Shown here: positions 12,556-16,857 of the stretch, piece after piece | How the letters are laid out: each line of letters opens with the position of its first letter | Numbering within the stretch: the first letter of the stretch is position 1 | Assembly (NCBI RefSeq): GCF_000212355.1 | Contig: NC_015496.1 | Location: 3,194,001 to 3,258,000, forward strand | DNA length: 64,000 nt | Source of the DNA: Dokdonia sp. 4H-3-7-5 | GTDB lineage: Bacteria; Bacteroidota; Bacteroidia; Flavobacteriales; Flavobacteriaceae | Direction: 5' to 3' | Program-made: the position numbers and the translations under genes | Notes under the pieces: model-generated | The model's database searches: none | Seen by the model: only the letters and a program-made list of their open reading frames with translations | Told to the model about the DNA's origin: nothing

Positions 12556-12582
12556 TGCGCTGCGCTATTGATTTCTTATAAA

Positions 12583-12602
12583 TACGCTTTCGCGAAAGTG
12601 TA
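12583..12602. repeat. Palindromic repeat, 20-bp form with one mismatch
   Basis: TACGCTTTCGCGAAAGTGTA, 27 bp after the pyc stop and just ahead of the intrinsic terminator. Confidence 0.92.
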
Positions 12603-12610
12603 ACAAACTA

Positions 12611-12641
12611 AAAACCACCCAAGGAATTGGGTGGTTTTTTT
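12611..12641 (+). terminator. Intrinsic terminator after pyc (probably bidirectional)
   Basis: Stem AAAACCACCCAA / TTGGGTGGTTTT with loop GGAA, followed by T residues. The reverse complement also ends in a T-run, so it can serve the helicase gene converging from the other side. Confidence 0.93.
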
Positions 12642-12699
12642 GTGGGTTTAAACTAAACTGAAGTTATCTATTAGAAACATTAAATTAAGATTTTGAGCA

Positions 12700-15600
12700 T
12701 TATAGCACCTTTATGAACTCTCCTATAATATTCATGTTTTCACCATTATCTTCATCGATAACAATATTAGAAAATCTGTCATCGTAAGAATTAGGACTTA
12801 AAATAATTGACTTATGAGCCCACCCCTCTTCGGTTACTGTTTTTTGACTATTGTATGTTTTTACTGTAAAAGCTGAATTTGTATCTGCGTCCTGTAAGTC
12901 AAAATTCTCAATTAATAAGATTTTACCATCCCTTGAGCCAGCCGAAGGTTTTTTAAATAAACAAATAGAACCATTTGGAATTCTTCTATTCATAGATTCT
13001 CCAATAACAGTACATGCAAAGTAATCATCACTATATTCCTCATTAGTTTCAAACATCGAGTATTCCTTTTCTGATTGCATTTCACTAAATGAACCAGCTG
13101 CAGCATAAAAATTGTACAATGGTATCTGATATATAGAACTTTTATTTTCTTCGTAGTTAGTTATTTGCTTCACATTGTCCGCTTCTGAGCTTGTTGAAGT
13201 ATTGTTTGAAACATTGCTCTCAGTTATATATCGGTAGATGTTTTCAGGTACAGAGTCCTTTAATTCAAATCTAATTTTCACTACTGGTACATCCTTACCA
13301 CTATCATTTTTCATTGTCGTTTGTTCAACCAAATCATGAATTGGCATGACATCACCCATAAAATAGAATTCGGTACTTTCATCATTGCTTTTTTTGATGA
13401 AAAGTGGTAATCTTATTTCCTTATTATCACGCTTACCTAATATTGACAAAACATCTTTACTTTCTAATTTTCTATTAGATTTAGACATCCAATTGAATTC
13501 TTTGTTATTTACGAATTCATCTTCATACTTAGTGGATTCAGAAATATTATCTTCCTTGTGATAATTTACAAAAATTGGACAATGTTCATCATTAGGGCTT
13601 ACGAGATATCCTCCAACGTTTTGAGGTACCGGATTTTCATTTACATTGAGAATTCTAAAAACATCTTTTCGTGAATACTTTTTATACAGAATAAAGCCAT
13701 TTCTCCAATCTTCAATTTTAAAGTTTCTATTAAATGTGTCAATAGAGTATTTAACCGAGTCGAGAAAATATTGTCTAAAGTCTTGTTGCTCCAGCATTTC
13801 ACTAAATTCAGGAGCTATGCTTATTACTCCGCTTTTTATGTCAATGATATTTAAGTTATATATTTCTCTAACGGAAATTAATTTTTTGTCCTTCTTTTCA
13901 CGGACAAATTCAAAATTCAAATTAGCTATAGTGGATATAATAGTTTCCTCATCAATTTCAAAGTCATAGCCAGTTTTAATAATTTTTTGAAATTCTTCAA
14001 ATTGTAAGGAACCGAATTTTATAAGCTCATGTATAAGTATACTTTCAGTTATCCGCTTTCCATTATTTATTTCTTTAGAAAATAATTCTAGTAATTTCAC
14101 TGCTTTACTCGAAATACTTCCTTTTAATTCCTTGTTCACTTTAATCGCGAAATTATAATAGGATTTGGCATAATCAACAAACCAGTAAGGGTCTCTAGAA
14201 CTTTGTTCAACAAAGTCCATCATAAATGGTTCTCTACCTAGTCTAAACTTCAACAAATCATAATCATTTCGTAAATCAGTAAAGCGCTTTAATTTCGCAT
14301 TATCAATTGATTTAAAAATTTTTTCTTTTGATATTCTATCAAAATTAATTGTTGATGTTCCAGGAATCATTCGACTTCCATCAGATAATAATTTTCTTAT
14401 TGAATCTTTGTTATAAGAAGTATCACCATATAAAGCTATTGGTATTAAATAATTGTTAGTGTAATTACCAATAAAGTCAATTATTGTAACATAACTCTTA
14501 CCTATTGTTTTTCTTAATCCCCTTCCTAATTGTTGAATAAAGATTATTGAAGAATTAGTTGGCCTCATCATAATTATCTGATTGACCCTTGGAATGTCTA
14601 TACCTTCATTAAAGATATCTACAGTCAAAATGTATTCAATCTTATCATTTAAATCTTCGGATTCTAATTTTCTAATTGCTTCAGCCCTTTCTTCTTCTGA
14701 ATTGTCACCAGTCAGTGCGATAGTCTTCAAACCTTTAAGATTAAGCTTTAATGATAAAGCTTGTGCTTCATCTTTTCTTGAGCAAAAGATTAATCCTCTT
14801 GTTACTCCATTATCAGTTCCGTATAAATTAGCATTAGTAACTATCTTATCAACGCGTTCATCCGCAGTTAATAAATTAAAATCGCTTTTATCATCAAGCG
14901 CATTTCCATTAATATTTATGTCAGTTACTCCATAGTAATGAAATGGACTTAACATCTCTTCCTCCATTGCTCTATTCAATCTTATTTCATAGGCAATATT
15001 ATGATTAAAAAGACTAAAAATATCATTCCCATCGGTGCGTTCGGGAGTAGCTGTCATACCCAGTAAAAACTTAGGATTAAAATATTCGATAAGTCTCAAA
15101 TAAGAATTTGCTCCGGAACGATGACTTTCATCAATTACTATGTAATCAAAATAATTCTTATCAAACTGTTCAAGATTTGATTGTTTAGAAATTGTTTGTA
15201 CTGTTGAAAAAAGGAAGTCTTTATCGAGTTCTTTAATATTTCCTGAATAAAGCCCCATGCTCTTAAAGTTTTTAAAGACAGATTTGAATGTCTTCATTGC
15301 CTTTTTAGCAATATTTTGTCTGTGGACGACAAACAAAAGTCTTTTAGGATTAAATTGCTTTGAGTCAAAAGCTGATAAGTAAGTTTTACCTGTGCCGGTT
15401 GCAGATATTAATAACGCTTTAGTTTCTTGTCGATTTCGAAGATTAGATAAGTTATATAAAGCTTCCATTTGCATGGAATTAGGTTTGATTTCTTCTAATG
15501 TTTGTACAGATGAAGTTTTAAAATTTAATAATTTCTGTGCGTTATATATTTCAGAATACTTTTCGATGAACTTTTCTGTAACTAATTCACCATTGTCGAA

Positions 15601-16131
15601 ATCCGATTCAAATTCTCCAATAACTTTATCTACAATATCACTAGAATGTAATGCCGAGACCTTAAGATTCCATTCTTTATTTTTTGATAACGCGGTATCT
15701 GTTAAATTACTACTACCTATAATTAAGTTATAATAATCTATTGTTTTAAAAAGATACCCCTTAGAATGCGAATTACCATGAGTTGAAATTCTCAGCTCAA
15801 TATTTTTAAATTTCAAAAGCTTTCTTAAAGCCTCGGGTTGAGTAAAATTTAAATATTGAGACACTATAACTTTCCCCTGTATCCCTTTTTCTTCAGCATA
15901 GATTAAACTATTCATTAAAGACGCGACACCACCAGTAGTTACAAAAGCTACTGAAATAAAAAAAGATTCACACCTCTCTAGTTCAGAGGTTATAGAAGTT
16001 AAAACCTTGGTTCTTGGATTCTTCCGATTAACTAATAATTCTGGTTGATAAAGTAATTCAGATTTTGATTTTTTATCAATAAAGCCAGTGTGAATACTGT
16101 TTTTAAAATCTTCTATTTTAAATTTAGTCAT
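12700..16131 (-). CDS. PLD nuclease - SF2 helicase - DUF3427 - S24 peptidase fusion protein
   Basis: A 1143-residue multidomain protein. The N-terminal PLD-like nuclease (about 40-190) has H122-x-K124 and GSSN at 139-142. The SF2 DEAD/DEAH helicase has Walker A GTGKT at 246-250, DESH at 334-337, GMTATPER at 358-365 and a motif VI QQLGRGLRK. A DUF3427-like region runs from about 580 to 960. The C-terminus is a complete LexA/S24-type peptidase: cleavage-like site AAAG (A1012-G1013), S1046 in VIGESM and K1091 in FTVK. No HTH is seen. Its start overlaps the NUDIX stop by 8 bp (ATGACTAA), so both genes form one unit. The DNA is visibly more AT-rich than its neighbours and lacks the dispersed palindrome, which suggests transfer. 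A role in phage defence or DNA-damage response is inferred; I do not recall a named system of this makeup. Confidence 0.88.
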   Translation of the reverse strand: MTKFKIEDFKNSIHTGFIDKKSKSELLYQPELLVNRKNPRTKVLTSITSELERCESFFISVAFVTTGGVASLMNSLIYAEEKGIQGKVIVSQYLNFTQPEALRKLLKFKNIELRISTHGNSHSKGYLFKTIDYYNLIIGSSNLTDTALSKNKEWNLKVSALHSSDIVDKVIGEFESDFDNGELVTEKFIEKYSEIYNAQKLLNFKTSSVQTLEEIKPNSMQMEALYNLSNLRNRQETKALLISATGTGKTYLSAFDSKQFNPKRLLFVVHRQNIAKKAMKTFKSVFKNFKSMGLYSGNIKELDKDFLFSTVQTISKQSNLEQFDKNYFDYIVIDESHRSGANSYLRLIEYFNPKFLLGMTATPERTDGNDIFSLFNHNIAYEIRLNRAMEEEMLSPFHYYGVTDININGNALDDKSDFNLLTADERVDKIVTNANLYGTDNGVTRGLIFCSRKDEAQALSLKLNLKGLKTIALTGDNSEEERAEAIRKLESEDLNDKIEYILTVDIFNEGIDIPRVNQIIMMRPTNSSIIFIQQLGRGLRKTIGKSYVTIIDFIGNYTNNYLIPIALYGDTSYNKDSIRKLLSDGSRMIPGTSTINFDRISKEKIFKSIDNAKLKRFTDLRNDYDLLKFRLGREPFMMDFVEQSSRDPYWFVDYAKSYYNFAIKVNKELKGSISSKAVKLLELFSKEINNGKRITESILIHELIKFGSLQFEEFQKIIKTGYDFEIDEETIISTIANLNFEFVREKKDKKLISVREIYNLNIIDIKSGVISIAPEFSEMLEQQDFRQYFLDSVKYSIDTFNRNFKIEDWRNGFILYKKYSRKDVFRILNVNENPVPQNVGGYLVSPNDEHCPIFVNYHKEDNISESTKYEDEFVNNKEFNWMSKSNRKLESKDVLSILGKRDNKEIRLPLFIKKSNDESTEFYFMGDVMPIHDLVEQTTMKNDSGKDVPVVKIRFELKDSVPENIYRYITESNVSNNTSTSSEADNVKQITNYEENKSSIYQIPLYNFYAAAGSFSEMQSEKEYSMFETNEEYSDDYFACTVIGESMNRRIPNGSICLFKKPSAGSRDGKILLIENFDLQDADTNSAFTVKTYNSQKTVTEEGWAHKSIILSPNSYDDRFSNIVIDEDNGENMNIIGEFIKVL

Positions 16132-16519
16132 TCATTATAAGTTTTTGCACTATCGGGATATCTGCTGCTGCCCAATCCAATGAATTTAATTTATCAAGAA
16201 TTAACCATTCAGCTGAAATGTGCTCTTTTAAACTAATTTCCTTGGTTTGGACTTTACAAATGTAACTGTGCATTTTTATTTCAAAATCTGGATATTGGTG
16301 ATTGATAGTTAAAAATAAGTCTCCGATGGAAGGTTCAATTTCTAATTCTTCTATAAGCTCTCTTTTCAAAGCTTCAATATTCGTTTCTCCAAATTCTATT
16401 TTTCCTCCTGGAAATTCAAATTTTTCAGAAATATAAGTTAGTTTATTTTTAGGACGTTGTAAACAAAGAATTTCCTCGCCATACTTAATTATAGCAGCGA
16501 CAACTTCTATTTTTTTCAT
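16124..16519 (-). CDS. NUDIX hydrolase (MutT-like (d)NTP pyrophosphohydrolase)
   Basis: A 131-residue NUDIX protein of the MutT type. The NUDIX box is complete: GGKIEFGETNIEALKRELIEEL, which fits GX5EX7REUXEE. It is preceded by FEFPG, as in MutT. Members hydrolyse oxidised or damaged nucleoside triphosphates such as 8-oxo-dGTP; substrate choice cannot be read here. The last eight bases overlap the start of the PLD-helicase-S24 gene, so the two products are probably made together. In this context it might clean up or degrade nucleotides linked to the nuclease/helicase activity, rather than being the housekeeping MutT. Confidence 0.92.
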   Translation of the reverse strand: MKKIEVVAAIIKYGEEILCLQRPKNKLTYISEKFEFPGGKIEFGETNIEALKRELIEELEIEPSIGDLFLTINHQYPDFEIKMHSYICKVQTKEISLKEHISAEWLILDKLNSLDWAAADIPIVQKLIMND

Positions 16520-16857
16520 TTATAATCTTGAATTTGTATTAATCAAAAGAATTGAAATAACCAAAATCTGAAATTTTCATTATTTTAATTCTCGAACAAT
16601 TTACTAAAGACGAGGTTAATTATATAGAAATAATCAGGTATAATAAATTAATAATCCTACAACATATTTAGTTCCTAAAACCTTAACAAATATCAATTTC
16701 AAAAATTAAATTATCCAACTTATTTAATATTCCCCTGAATAAAAGACTTGTTTATTAATTGATATGTGAAATTCAATAAAAAATCTAATTTGCCAACCTC
16801 CCACCCCATCCCCACCAAAACCATATCTTTGAGTAAAACACCACCACCACTCAACCT
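16520..16857. other. AT-rich intergenic region between the NUDIX operon and the MFS gene
   Basis: A 338-bp divergent spacer that is very AT-rich up to about 16790 and then C/A-rich. It must hold the NUDIX-helicase promoter and the MFS promoter. I see no ORF, tRNA or clear hairpin in it. Its left part shares the AT-rich style of the helicase island, so the right border of that island may lie near 16790. Confidence 0.6.
16824..16831 (+). promoter_or_regulatory. Candidate -7 element for the MFS gene
   Basis: TATCTTTG matches TAnnTTTG exactly and lies 26 bp before the MFS start codon. The nearest upstream TTG (16790-16792) is too far away for the usual spacing, so the call rests on the -7 box alone. 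Confidence 0.45.

Follow-up and report, generated by a model that had tools for sequence, protein, structure and literature searches.

The 64,000-nucleotide window analysed in this study (positions 3,194,001 to 3,258,000 of contig NC_015496.1, Dokdonia sp. 4H-3-7-5) carries two adjoining genes on the minus strand, one encoding a NUDIX hydrolase and the other a much larger protein in which a PLD nuclease, an SF2 helicase motor, a DUF3427 region and a C-terminal LexA-like Peptidase_S24 module are joined (Table 1). The two genes overlap by 8 bp. Their open reading frames (ORFs) and coordinates were exact in an initial annotation made from the letters alone, and its domain list was recovered by Pfam, which finds PLDc_2, ResIII, Helicase_C, DUF3427, Peptidase_S24 and NUDIX. 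Judged by its sequence, the core of the large protein is almost certainly a modification-dependent (type IV) restriction enzyme of the SauUSI type.

Table 1. Features of the gene pair and its downstream border, with positions in the window; residue numbers refer to the large protein.
Feature	Position	Strand	Remarks
NUDIX hydrolase, 131 aa, first gene of the pair	16124..16519	(-)	probable 5-methyl/5-hydroxymethyl-dCTP pyrophosphohydrolase, substrate deduced from PMC5158307
Type IV restriction enzyme of the SauUSI type, LexA-like S24 module at the C-terminus, 1143 aa	12700..16131	(-)	
PLD nuclease part, residues 1-200	15532..16131	(-)	H122-x-K124, N142, E153
SF2 motor, residues 201-620	14272..15531	(-)	Walker A 244-250, DESH 334-337, QLGRGLR 534-540
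Coupler and SRA-like reader (DUF3427), residues 621-970	13222..14271	(-)	5mC pocket Y842, F854, V855, D871, W881
Linker, residues ~971-999, predicted disordered	13135..13221	(-)	pLDDT <50 at 974-999 in the full-length model
S24 module, residues 1000-1143	12703..13134	(-)	predicted scissile bond A1012/G1013, catalytic S1046 and K1091, from conservation and fold
Terminator-like hairpin	12610..12639	(-), as reported	lies between pyruvate carboxylase and the end of the restriction gene

In the large protein, Pfam places PLDc_2 at residues 70-177, ResIII at 215-365, Helicase_C at 441-540 and DUF3427 at 684-970 (E 6e-83), and an end-to-end alignment with SauUSI (PDB 7clg, E 1.2e-228) covers residues 6-970. 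The PADLOC match was mREase_IV (E 1e-239), and the top Foldseek match of the full-length model (34 sequences, pLDDT 72, pTM 0.42) was again 7clg (E 1e-57). A wholly new helicase-nuclease system is ruled out by the mREase_IV and 7clg matches. SauUSI is composed of a PLD nuclease, an SF2 motor and a reader of the SRA fold, and cuts DNA containing 5-methylcytosine (5mC) or 5-hydroxymethylcytosine (5hmC) with ATP or dATP (PMC7913695, PMC3874153; here and below, papers are cited from the text available for each). The Dokdonia protein follows this enzyme in the order of nuclease, motor, coupler and SRA-like reader, and keeps both the HxK catalytic residues and the 5mC pocket described for SauUSI (PMC7913695). 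The motifs of the SF2 motor are intact. The PLD residues H122, K124, N142 and E153 are invariant across 34 S24-bearing sequences, the asparagine and glutamate being, as we take it from BfiI, part of the same motif. In a hand alignment the pocket residues Y831, F841, I842, D858 and W868 of SauUSI correspond to Y842, F854, V855, D871 and W881, of which four are invariant in the same 34 sequences and D871 is nearly so. Two differences stand out: SauUSI (7CLG, 953 residues) has no S24 module, and M829, the residue inserted at its base-flipping site, is not kept, being G840 in the Dokdonia protein. By its likeness to SauUSI, the Dokdonia enzyme is predicted to cleave in an ATP-dependent manner and only DNA that carries 5mC or 5hmC. 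An enzyme that cuts 5mC requires a host without C5 methyltransferase, and this fits the complete genome (3.39 Mb, one contig), in which no match to the C5-cytosine methyltransferase family (PF00145) was found, while 10 of 14 control genomes do match.

The association with the NUDIX gene was followed in the best 80 of 277 SauUSI relatives in a species-genome collection, a sample biased to close ones. A readable SauUSI ORF was present in 78 of these loci, and one had too little upstream sequence, which left 77 testable. In 76 of the 77, a NUDIX gene on the same strand immediately precedes the SauUSI gene: the spacing is -85 to +18 bp in 75 loci, with exactly -8 in 39, and in the remaining one (L151) the two are fused. 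In the exception (L137) the ORF is split, and the NUDIX gene is found 802 bp upstream of the scored part. Three archaeal loci (L143, L146, L149) are among the relatives, and a NUDIX (pyrophosphohydrolase) gene also stands directly upstream of a Staphylococcus aureus SauUSI homologue. Because the best 80 loci are the closest relatives, the linkage test was repeated on an evenly drawn sample of 345 Bacteroidota genomes, which contain 38 SauUSI-type genes in 36 genomes and 61 NUDIX genes of the family in 58; close and distant types were split by us at 1000 bits and adjacency was judged by hand from coordinates. All eight close-type genes (>1000 bits, window included) adjoin a NUDIX gene, as do 10 of the 30 distant-type genes, with one more distant-type gene at a contig end. 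Conversely, the 18 best-scoring NUDIX genes all adjoin a SauUSI-type gene, and the lower-scoring ones mostly do not. A distant-type set from Flavobacteriaceae gave an upstream NUDIX gene in 15 of 22 loci with >1 kb of upstream sequence, and in a plasmid collection it accompanied five of six close-type loci, including Lactobacillaceae and an S. aureus record, and neither of two distant-type loci. A chance neighbourhood is ruled out by the 76 of 77 relatives and the adjacency counts of the even sample. As the NUDIX gene is kept across loci while the S24 module varies, the former is the constant partner and the latter an accessory one. In Clostridium algoriphilum (L151, 5578-8907, plus strand) the NUDIX domain is fused to the N-terminus of a SauUSI-type enzyme.

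A co-localisation of this kind is already in print for Streptococcus suis, where the PADLOC candidate PDC-S07 and type IV restriction-modification genes occurred within 20 genes of each other in 23 of 23 cases (PMC12813430). The Dokdonia NUDIX protein matches PDC-S07, a phage defence candidate, at E 1e-45. PDC-S07 is a separate candidate in PADLOC, and the available text gives no substrate, partner role or mechanism for it.

The S24 module comprises the last ~145 residues of the large protein, following the predicted disordered linker (974-999), and matches Pfam Peptidase_S24 at 1004-1095 (E 2.5e-5). A model of the domain (pLDDT 79.9) was matched by Foldseek to LexA (1jhe, E 1e-5), LexA-RecA (8gms, E 2e-4) and lambda CI (2hnf), and this agreement of the predicted fold makes the assignment firmer. 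The module shares with LexA, UmuD and lambda CI an Ala-Gly site, a Ser-Lys dyad and the predicted fold; it differs from them in being C-terminal on a restriction motor, not joined to a DNA-binding domain or acting as a polymerase accessory. The module was found in 18 of 395 genomes of the phylum and 32 of 395 of the class, the two samples overlapping. Classifiable carriers (short fragments are set aside, as are G949 and G1141, two matches that gave no locus) were SauUSI, a protein of ~730 aa with GIY-YIG and SLFN-g3 helicase domains by Pfam, and, twice, the type I subunit HsdR. Among 85 distinct fused copies (69 on SauUSI, 14 SLFN-type and 2 on HsdR, five fragments having been dropped beforehand), the catalytic serine and lysine and the P1 alanine are present in all 85 and the P1' glycine in 83. 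The S24 is thus a transferable module on three unrelated cores; its occurrence on these three kinds of carrier, like the domains, the conserved catalytic residues and the gene linkage, was computed directly. In the best S24 tree the carrier type changes four times, where two is the least possible and more than two are not forced. In the 14 loci that have no S24, tblastn detected no remnant of one. That this particular module came from a phage was rejected for now, the viral-contig scan having returned 35 loci that are all only 25-39% identical, over part or full length. Both HsdR carriers (L167, 5036-8584, minus strand; L168, 5025-8570, plus strand) have the S24 at the C-terminus and AAA ATPase genes in the locus, and L168 additionally holds HNH, HsdM and HsdS genes. 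A leftover DUF3427-S24 part or S24 alone occurs in L044 (9322-10041) and L047 (6093-6353), which suggests decay of the system in some genomes.

The 131-residue partner matches the Pfam NUDIX family at E 3e-13. Its nearest solved and characterised relative is Q5LBB1 of Bacteroides fragilis (PDB 3gwy, E 1e-39), with 64 of 127 residues (50%) identical over the printed 3gwy stretch. The strict Nudix box is present in it and in all 77 NUDIX proteins above 150 bits in the 80 loci, which are 43-56% identical (median 50%) to the same stretch. When Q5LBB1 was screened on 74 substrates, the top ones were 5-Me-CTP, 5-Me-dCTP and 5-hydroxymethyl-dCTP, with kcat/Km of 6.7, 4.8 and 4.4 x 10^6 M-1 s-1, respectively; the value for 5-OH-dCTP was ~50-fold lower, and cleavage occurred mainly at the alpha-beta bond (PMC5158307). 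The available text of that paper mentions no defence role. As Q5LBB1 is a full-length relative with a preference for 5-substituted CTP and dCTP, the Dokdonia protein is probably a 5-methyl/5-hydroxymethyl-dCTP pyrophosphohydrolase, a reading in which we have good confidence. Since 5mC and 5hmC are both the bases that SauUSI attacks in DNA and the forms favoured by the NUDIX relative, the hydrolase would serve to clean the nucleotide pool. It would remove 5-methyl- and 5-hydroxymethyl-dCTP from the deoxynucleoside triphosphate (dNTP) pool and so keep host DNA free of the attacked mark, in which case the NUDIX protein would replace, for self-protection, the methyltransferase of a classical system. 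That self-protection of the host is its main role we consider an even chance.

The NUDIX protein may also starve phages that build their DNA with 5-hydroxymethyl-dCTP. This could even be its main task, with the destruction of the 5-hydroxymethyl-dCTP of T4-like phages causing DNA synthesis to fail or to yield cuttable DNA. The nearly equal activity of Q5LBB1 on 5-hydroxymethyl-dCTP and 5-methyl-dCTP (PMC5158307) agrees with such an attack; we nevertheless regard it as the less likely role, because the loss of 5-hydroxymethyl-dCTP erases the very mark that the nuclease needs, and the tight linkage is more simply explained by self-protection. It is improbable that the protein is a general MutT-like housekeeper acting on 8-oxo-dGTP, or an enzyme of a nucleotide signal, linked for unrelated reasons. 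The NCBIfam MutT model is the best of the curated NCBIfam models for the NUDIX protein and its score (89.6 bits, cut-off 97.9) exceeds that of the pyrimidine NTP model (79.2 bits, cut-off 156), both lying below their cut-offs; against this, the nearest characterised protein, at 50% identity, is an enzyme of 5-substituted CTP, the linkage is specifically to SauUSI-type genes, and the unrelated partner of the SLFN-type carriers described below is likewise nearest to a dCTP enzyme.

Self-cleavage driven by RecA needs an Ala-Gly bond and a Ser-Lys dyad, and S24 proteins are SOS regulators in Bacteroidetes (PMC8565304). Given the conservation in the fused copies, cleavage at the predicted A1012/G1013 bond probably occurs. 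Also present in this genome are a 256-aa HTH-S24 regulator and adjacent UmuD-like and UmuC-like genes, all named by sequence reading. A promoter scan gave nothing beyond chance, and transcriptional SOS control was rejected, as no flavobacterial SOS box was found upstream of the pair; control, if any, would therefore lie in the protein itself. In LexA-like proteins, C-degrons for ClpXP become exposed next to the cut (PMC5742171), and restriction alleviation of EcoKI is the degradation of HsdR by ClpXP, with a degron that was not found (PMC4231737). A RecA filament on damaged DNA would trigger the self-cut of the S24 module, leaving a nuclease fragment that ends in ..FYAAA and in this resembles the LexA fragment degraded by ClpXP. 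Taken together, the degrons of LexA-like proteins, the ClpXP-driven alleviation of EcoKI and the ..FYAAA end point to an off-switch, in which degradation of the fragment would stop restriction during repair as a built-in alleviation. We give even odds to cleavage switching the enzyme off. The P2-P1 residues are AA in 83 of the 85 fused copies by column counts. EcoKI resembles this scheme in the post-translational shut-down of a restriction motor when the host is endangered; it differs in that its degron was not identified (PMC4231737), whereas the self-cleaving part of the Dokdonia enzyme could expose one. The full-length model (pTM 0.42) gives nothing reliable on how the S24 module packs against the nuclease. 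The HsdR of EcoKI presumably has no S24 part.

An on-switch is the strongest alternative to an off-switch, and we hold it to be less likely. The S24 module would restrain the nuclease until RecA filaments at phage forks or breaks trigger cleavage and free a fully active enzyme. The cleaved product (1-1012) is close to homologues that naturally have no S24, UmuD is activated by cleavage (PMC8565304), and full catalytic conservation of the S24 fits either direction. With one module on three cores of unrelated nuclease domains, however, a tethered signal is more likely than an inhibitory interface with a matching fit, and the linker is predicted to be disordered, for what a model unreliable on packing can say. 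An effect of cleavage other than off or on is unlikely. That the S24 has lost cleavage and serves solely to dimerise the enzyme is very improbable: LexA-type domains do dimerise (PMC8565304) and SauUSI was crystallised as a dimer, yet SauUSI already dimerises through its nuclease domain (PMC7913695), and a pure dimeriser should have lost some of the Ser and Lys residues kept in 85 of 85 copies or of the Ala-Gly pairs kept in 83.

The reading that we consider best, at about an even chance as a whole, combines a restriction enzyme, a sanitiser of the nucleotide pool and a self-cleavage switch triggered by RecA. The large protein would bind 5mC or 5hmC in incoming DNA through its SRA-like domain, the SF2 motor would translocate and the PLD nuclease would shred the DNA, as SauUSI does, while the NUDIX and S24 parts would act as described above; everything biochemical in it, that is substrates, cleavage and the direction of the switch, we infer. 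Besides the higher score of the MutT model, a number of observations weigh against it. NUDIX enzymes are promiscuous. At the threshold used, 19 of the 30 distant-type SauUSI genes of the even sample have no adjacent NUDIX gene (contig ends being unchecked for these 19), and neither has the Fusobacterium close-type locus of the plasmid collection. The Pfam score of the S24 (24.4 bits) is barely above the cut-off of 23.3. Besides SauUSI itself, which has no S24, the module went unscored in 15 of the 76 loci with a NUDIX gene, in L099 only because of a split ORF. The presence of S24 needs at least four changes on the SauUSI core tree, forced by its starred branches; this tree was made by a quick method with SH-aLRT support only, and its rows L094, L147 and L120 are over-trimmed. 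The P2-P1 residues AA are also found in 15 of 27 phage S24 proteins, with a site chosen by a rough distance rule, so that they lend the degron mild support and not proof. No exact flavobacterial SOS box GGA-N5-TCC lies between 6617 and 17902. Finally, the cleaved product would be a complete SauUSI-like enzyme, which cleavage would not inactivate if no degron were exposed, and an on-switch is nearly as good a reading.

The second class of S24 carrier offers a parallel. A small MazG-like gene lies just upstream in all 15 SLFN-type S24 loci whose upstream side was inspected (L045, L046, L048-L053, L158-L162, L164, L165). Seven of these MazG-like genes went into a profile with which seven more were then recovered, and the one in L051 was obtained by tblastn; those of L045 and L053 were the ones checked with Pfam. 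The MazG-like protein of L053, the only one compared, has dCTP pyrophosphatase 1 (dCTPP1) and RS21-C6 as nearest solved relatives (E 2e-18), and human dCTPP1 prefers dCTP and 5-methyl-dCTP (PMC4491611). On these sequence relationships, two unrelated S24-bearing nuclease-helicases each appear to have as partner a pyrophosphohydrolase with characterised relatives that act on 5-methyl-dCTP, and MazG with the GIY-YIG/SLFN-g3 helicase and S24 is a candidate for a further defence system against modified cytosine. When 43 genomes were searched for SLFN helicases, with S24-less forms in view, a single match came up, and its genome had been recorded before as a carrier of the S24 form. On a Lactiplantibacillus plasmid (L226, 2065-7460), NUDIX, SauUSI, MazG and SLFN helicase genes are consecutive and none has an S24, and in L159 (5796-7982) the SLFN helicase-S24 gene is broken into two ORFs just ahead of the S24 region.

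Our joint proposal, advanced tentatively, is a 'restriction-sanitation' class, in which a nuclease attacks a modified DNA base and a partner pyrophosphohydrolase clears that base from the dNTP pool, a solution arrived at twice from unrelated components and furnished with a transferable RecA-sensing self-cleavage cassette as a safety switch. The proposed pairs are SauUSI with NUDIX and the GIY-YIG/SLFN-g3 helicase with a dCTPP1-like MazG, the helicase then being a modified-cytosine restriction enzyme too, and the proposed recipients of the cassette are the restriction motors of type IV, SLFN-type and type I HsdR.

The gene pair is flanked by a pyruvate carboxylase gene and an MFS gene, between which only the two genes and overlapping small ORFs occur. 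GC content falls to ~0.30 across 13-17 kb of the window, compared with 0.38-0.43 in the preceding 5 kb and the following 4 kb, which confirms the AT-rich island between housekeeping genes that had been noticed initially. The same gap next to the MFS gene (12556-16857 in the window) holds other restriction genes in four congeners with flanking proteins 96-99% identical (L054, L182, L183, L184): a second SauUSI type in G008, an NgoPII-type system with a C5 methyltransferase in G002, two C5 methyltransferases with McrBC-like genes in G007, and in G012 a MutH-type enzyme beside a contig end that hides the pyruvate carboxylase side. The locus looks like an exchange site for restriction systems, some of which would make 5mC, the mark that SauUSI cuts. 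The MFS gene is present in 10 of 18 genomes of the genus, and in the four more distant ones inspected (G003, G011, G013, G016) it has other neighbours. Another preferred insertion site may lie behind DNA polymerase I, which the NUDIX-SauUSI pair immediately follows in L042 and L055; in L057 a gene of similar size, identified by size alone, has the same position.

The initial annotation was right to propose a defence unit of two genes with a LexA-type domain in an island, which proves to be variable, and the NUDIX partner that it saw is conserved; homologues in core positions without the NUDIX gene, which would have spoken against it, are not what the 76 of 77 loci and the congener site present. 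Its suggestion of a new system stands in part. The PLD-SF2-DUF3427 core already bears the name SauUSI, and PADLOC, with which a comparison had been suggested, holds each gene separately, as mREase_IV and PDC-S07, with no one model for the pair; no single model for the full set was found among the family libraries searched, and in the text available to us we found no name for the set with S24 and NUDIX. The literature covered, which is partial so that a description could be missed, gave no account of the mechanism or of an S24 module on SauUSI-type enzymes, and, with the same partial coverage, no paper that brings together Peptidase S24, fusion, restriction endonuclease and helicase. 'SauUSI' and 'nudix' were found together only in PMC7159879, in whose available text the nudix and DUF3427/SauUSI passages are in different sections.

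Type IV enzymes have no methyltransferase that marks self. To our knowledge, the escape of a host from its own 5mC-cutting nuclease is usually explained merely by the lack of the mark. A pool cleaner beside SauUSI-type enzymes, including an S. aureus homologue, would be a directly testable answer to how such hosts avoid self-attack, and, if true, the NUDIX specificity measured in 2016 gains a biological meaning. The S24 module would tie restriction to DNA damage within one polypeptide, so that restriction alleviation becomes testable by point mutants, and its sharing among carriers predicts a second modified-cytosine restriction system, formed by MazG and the GIY-YIG/SLFN-g3 helicase.

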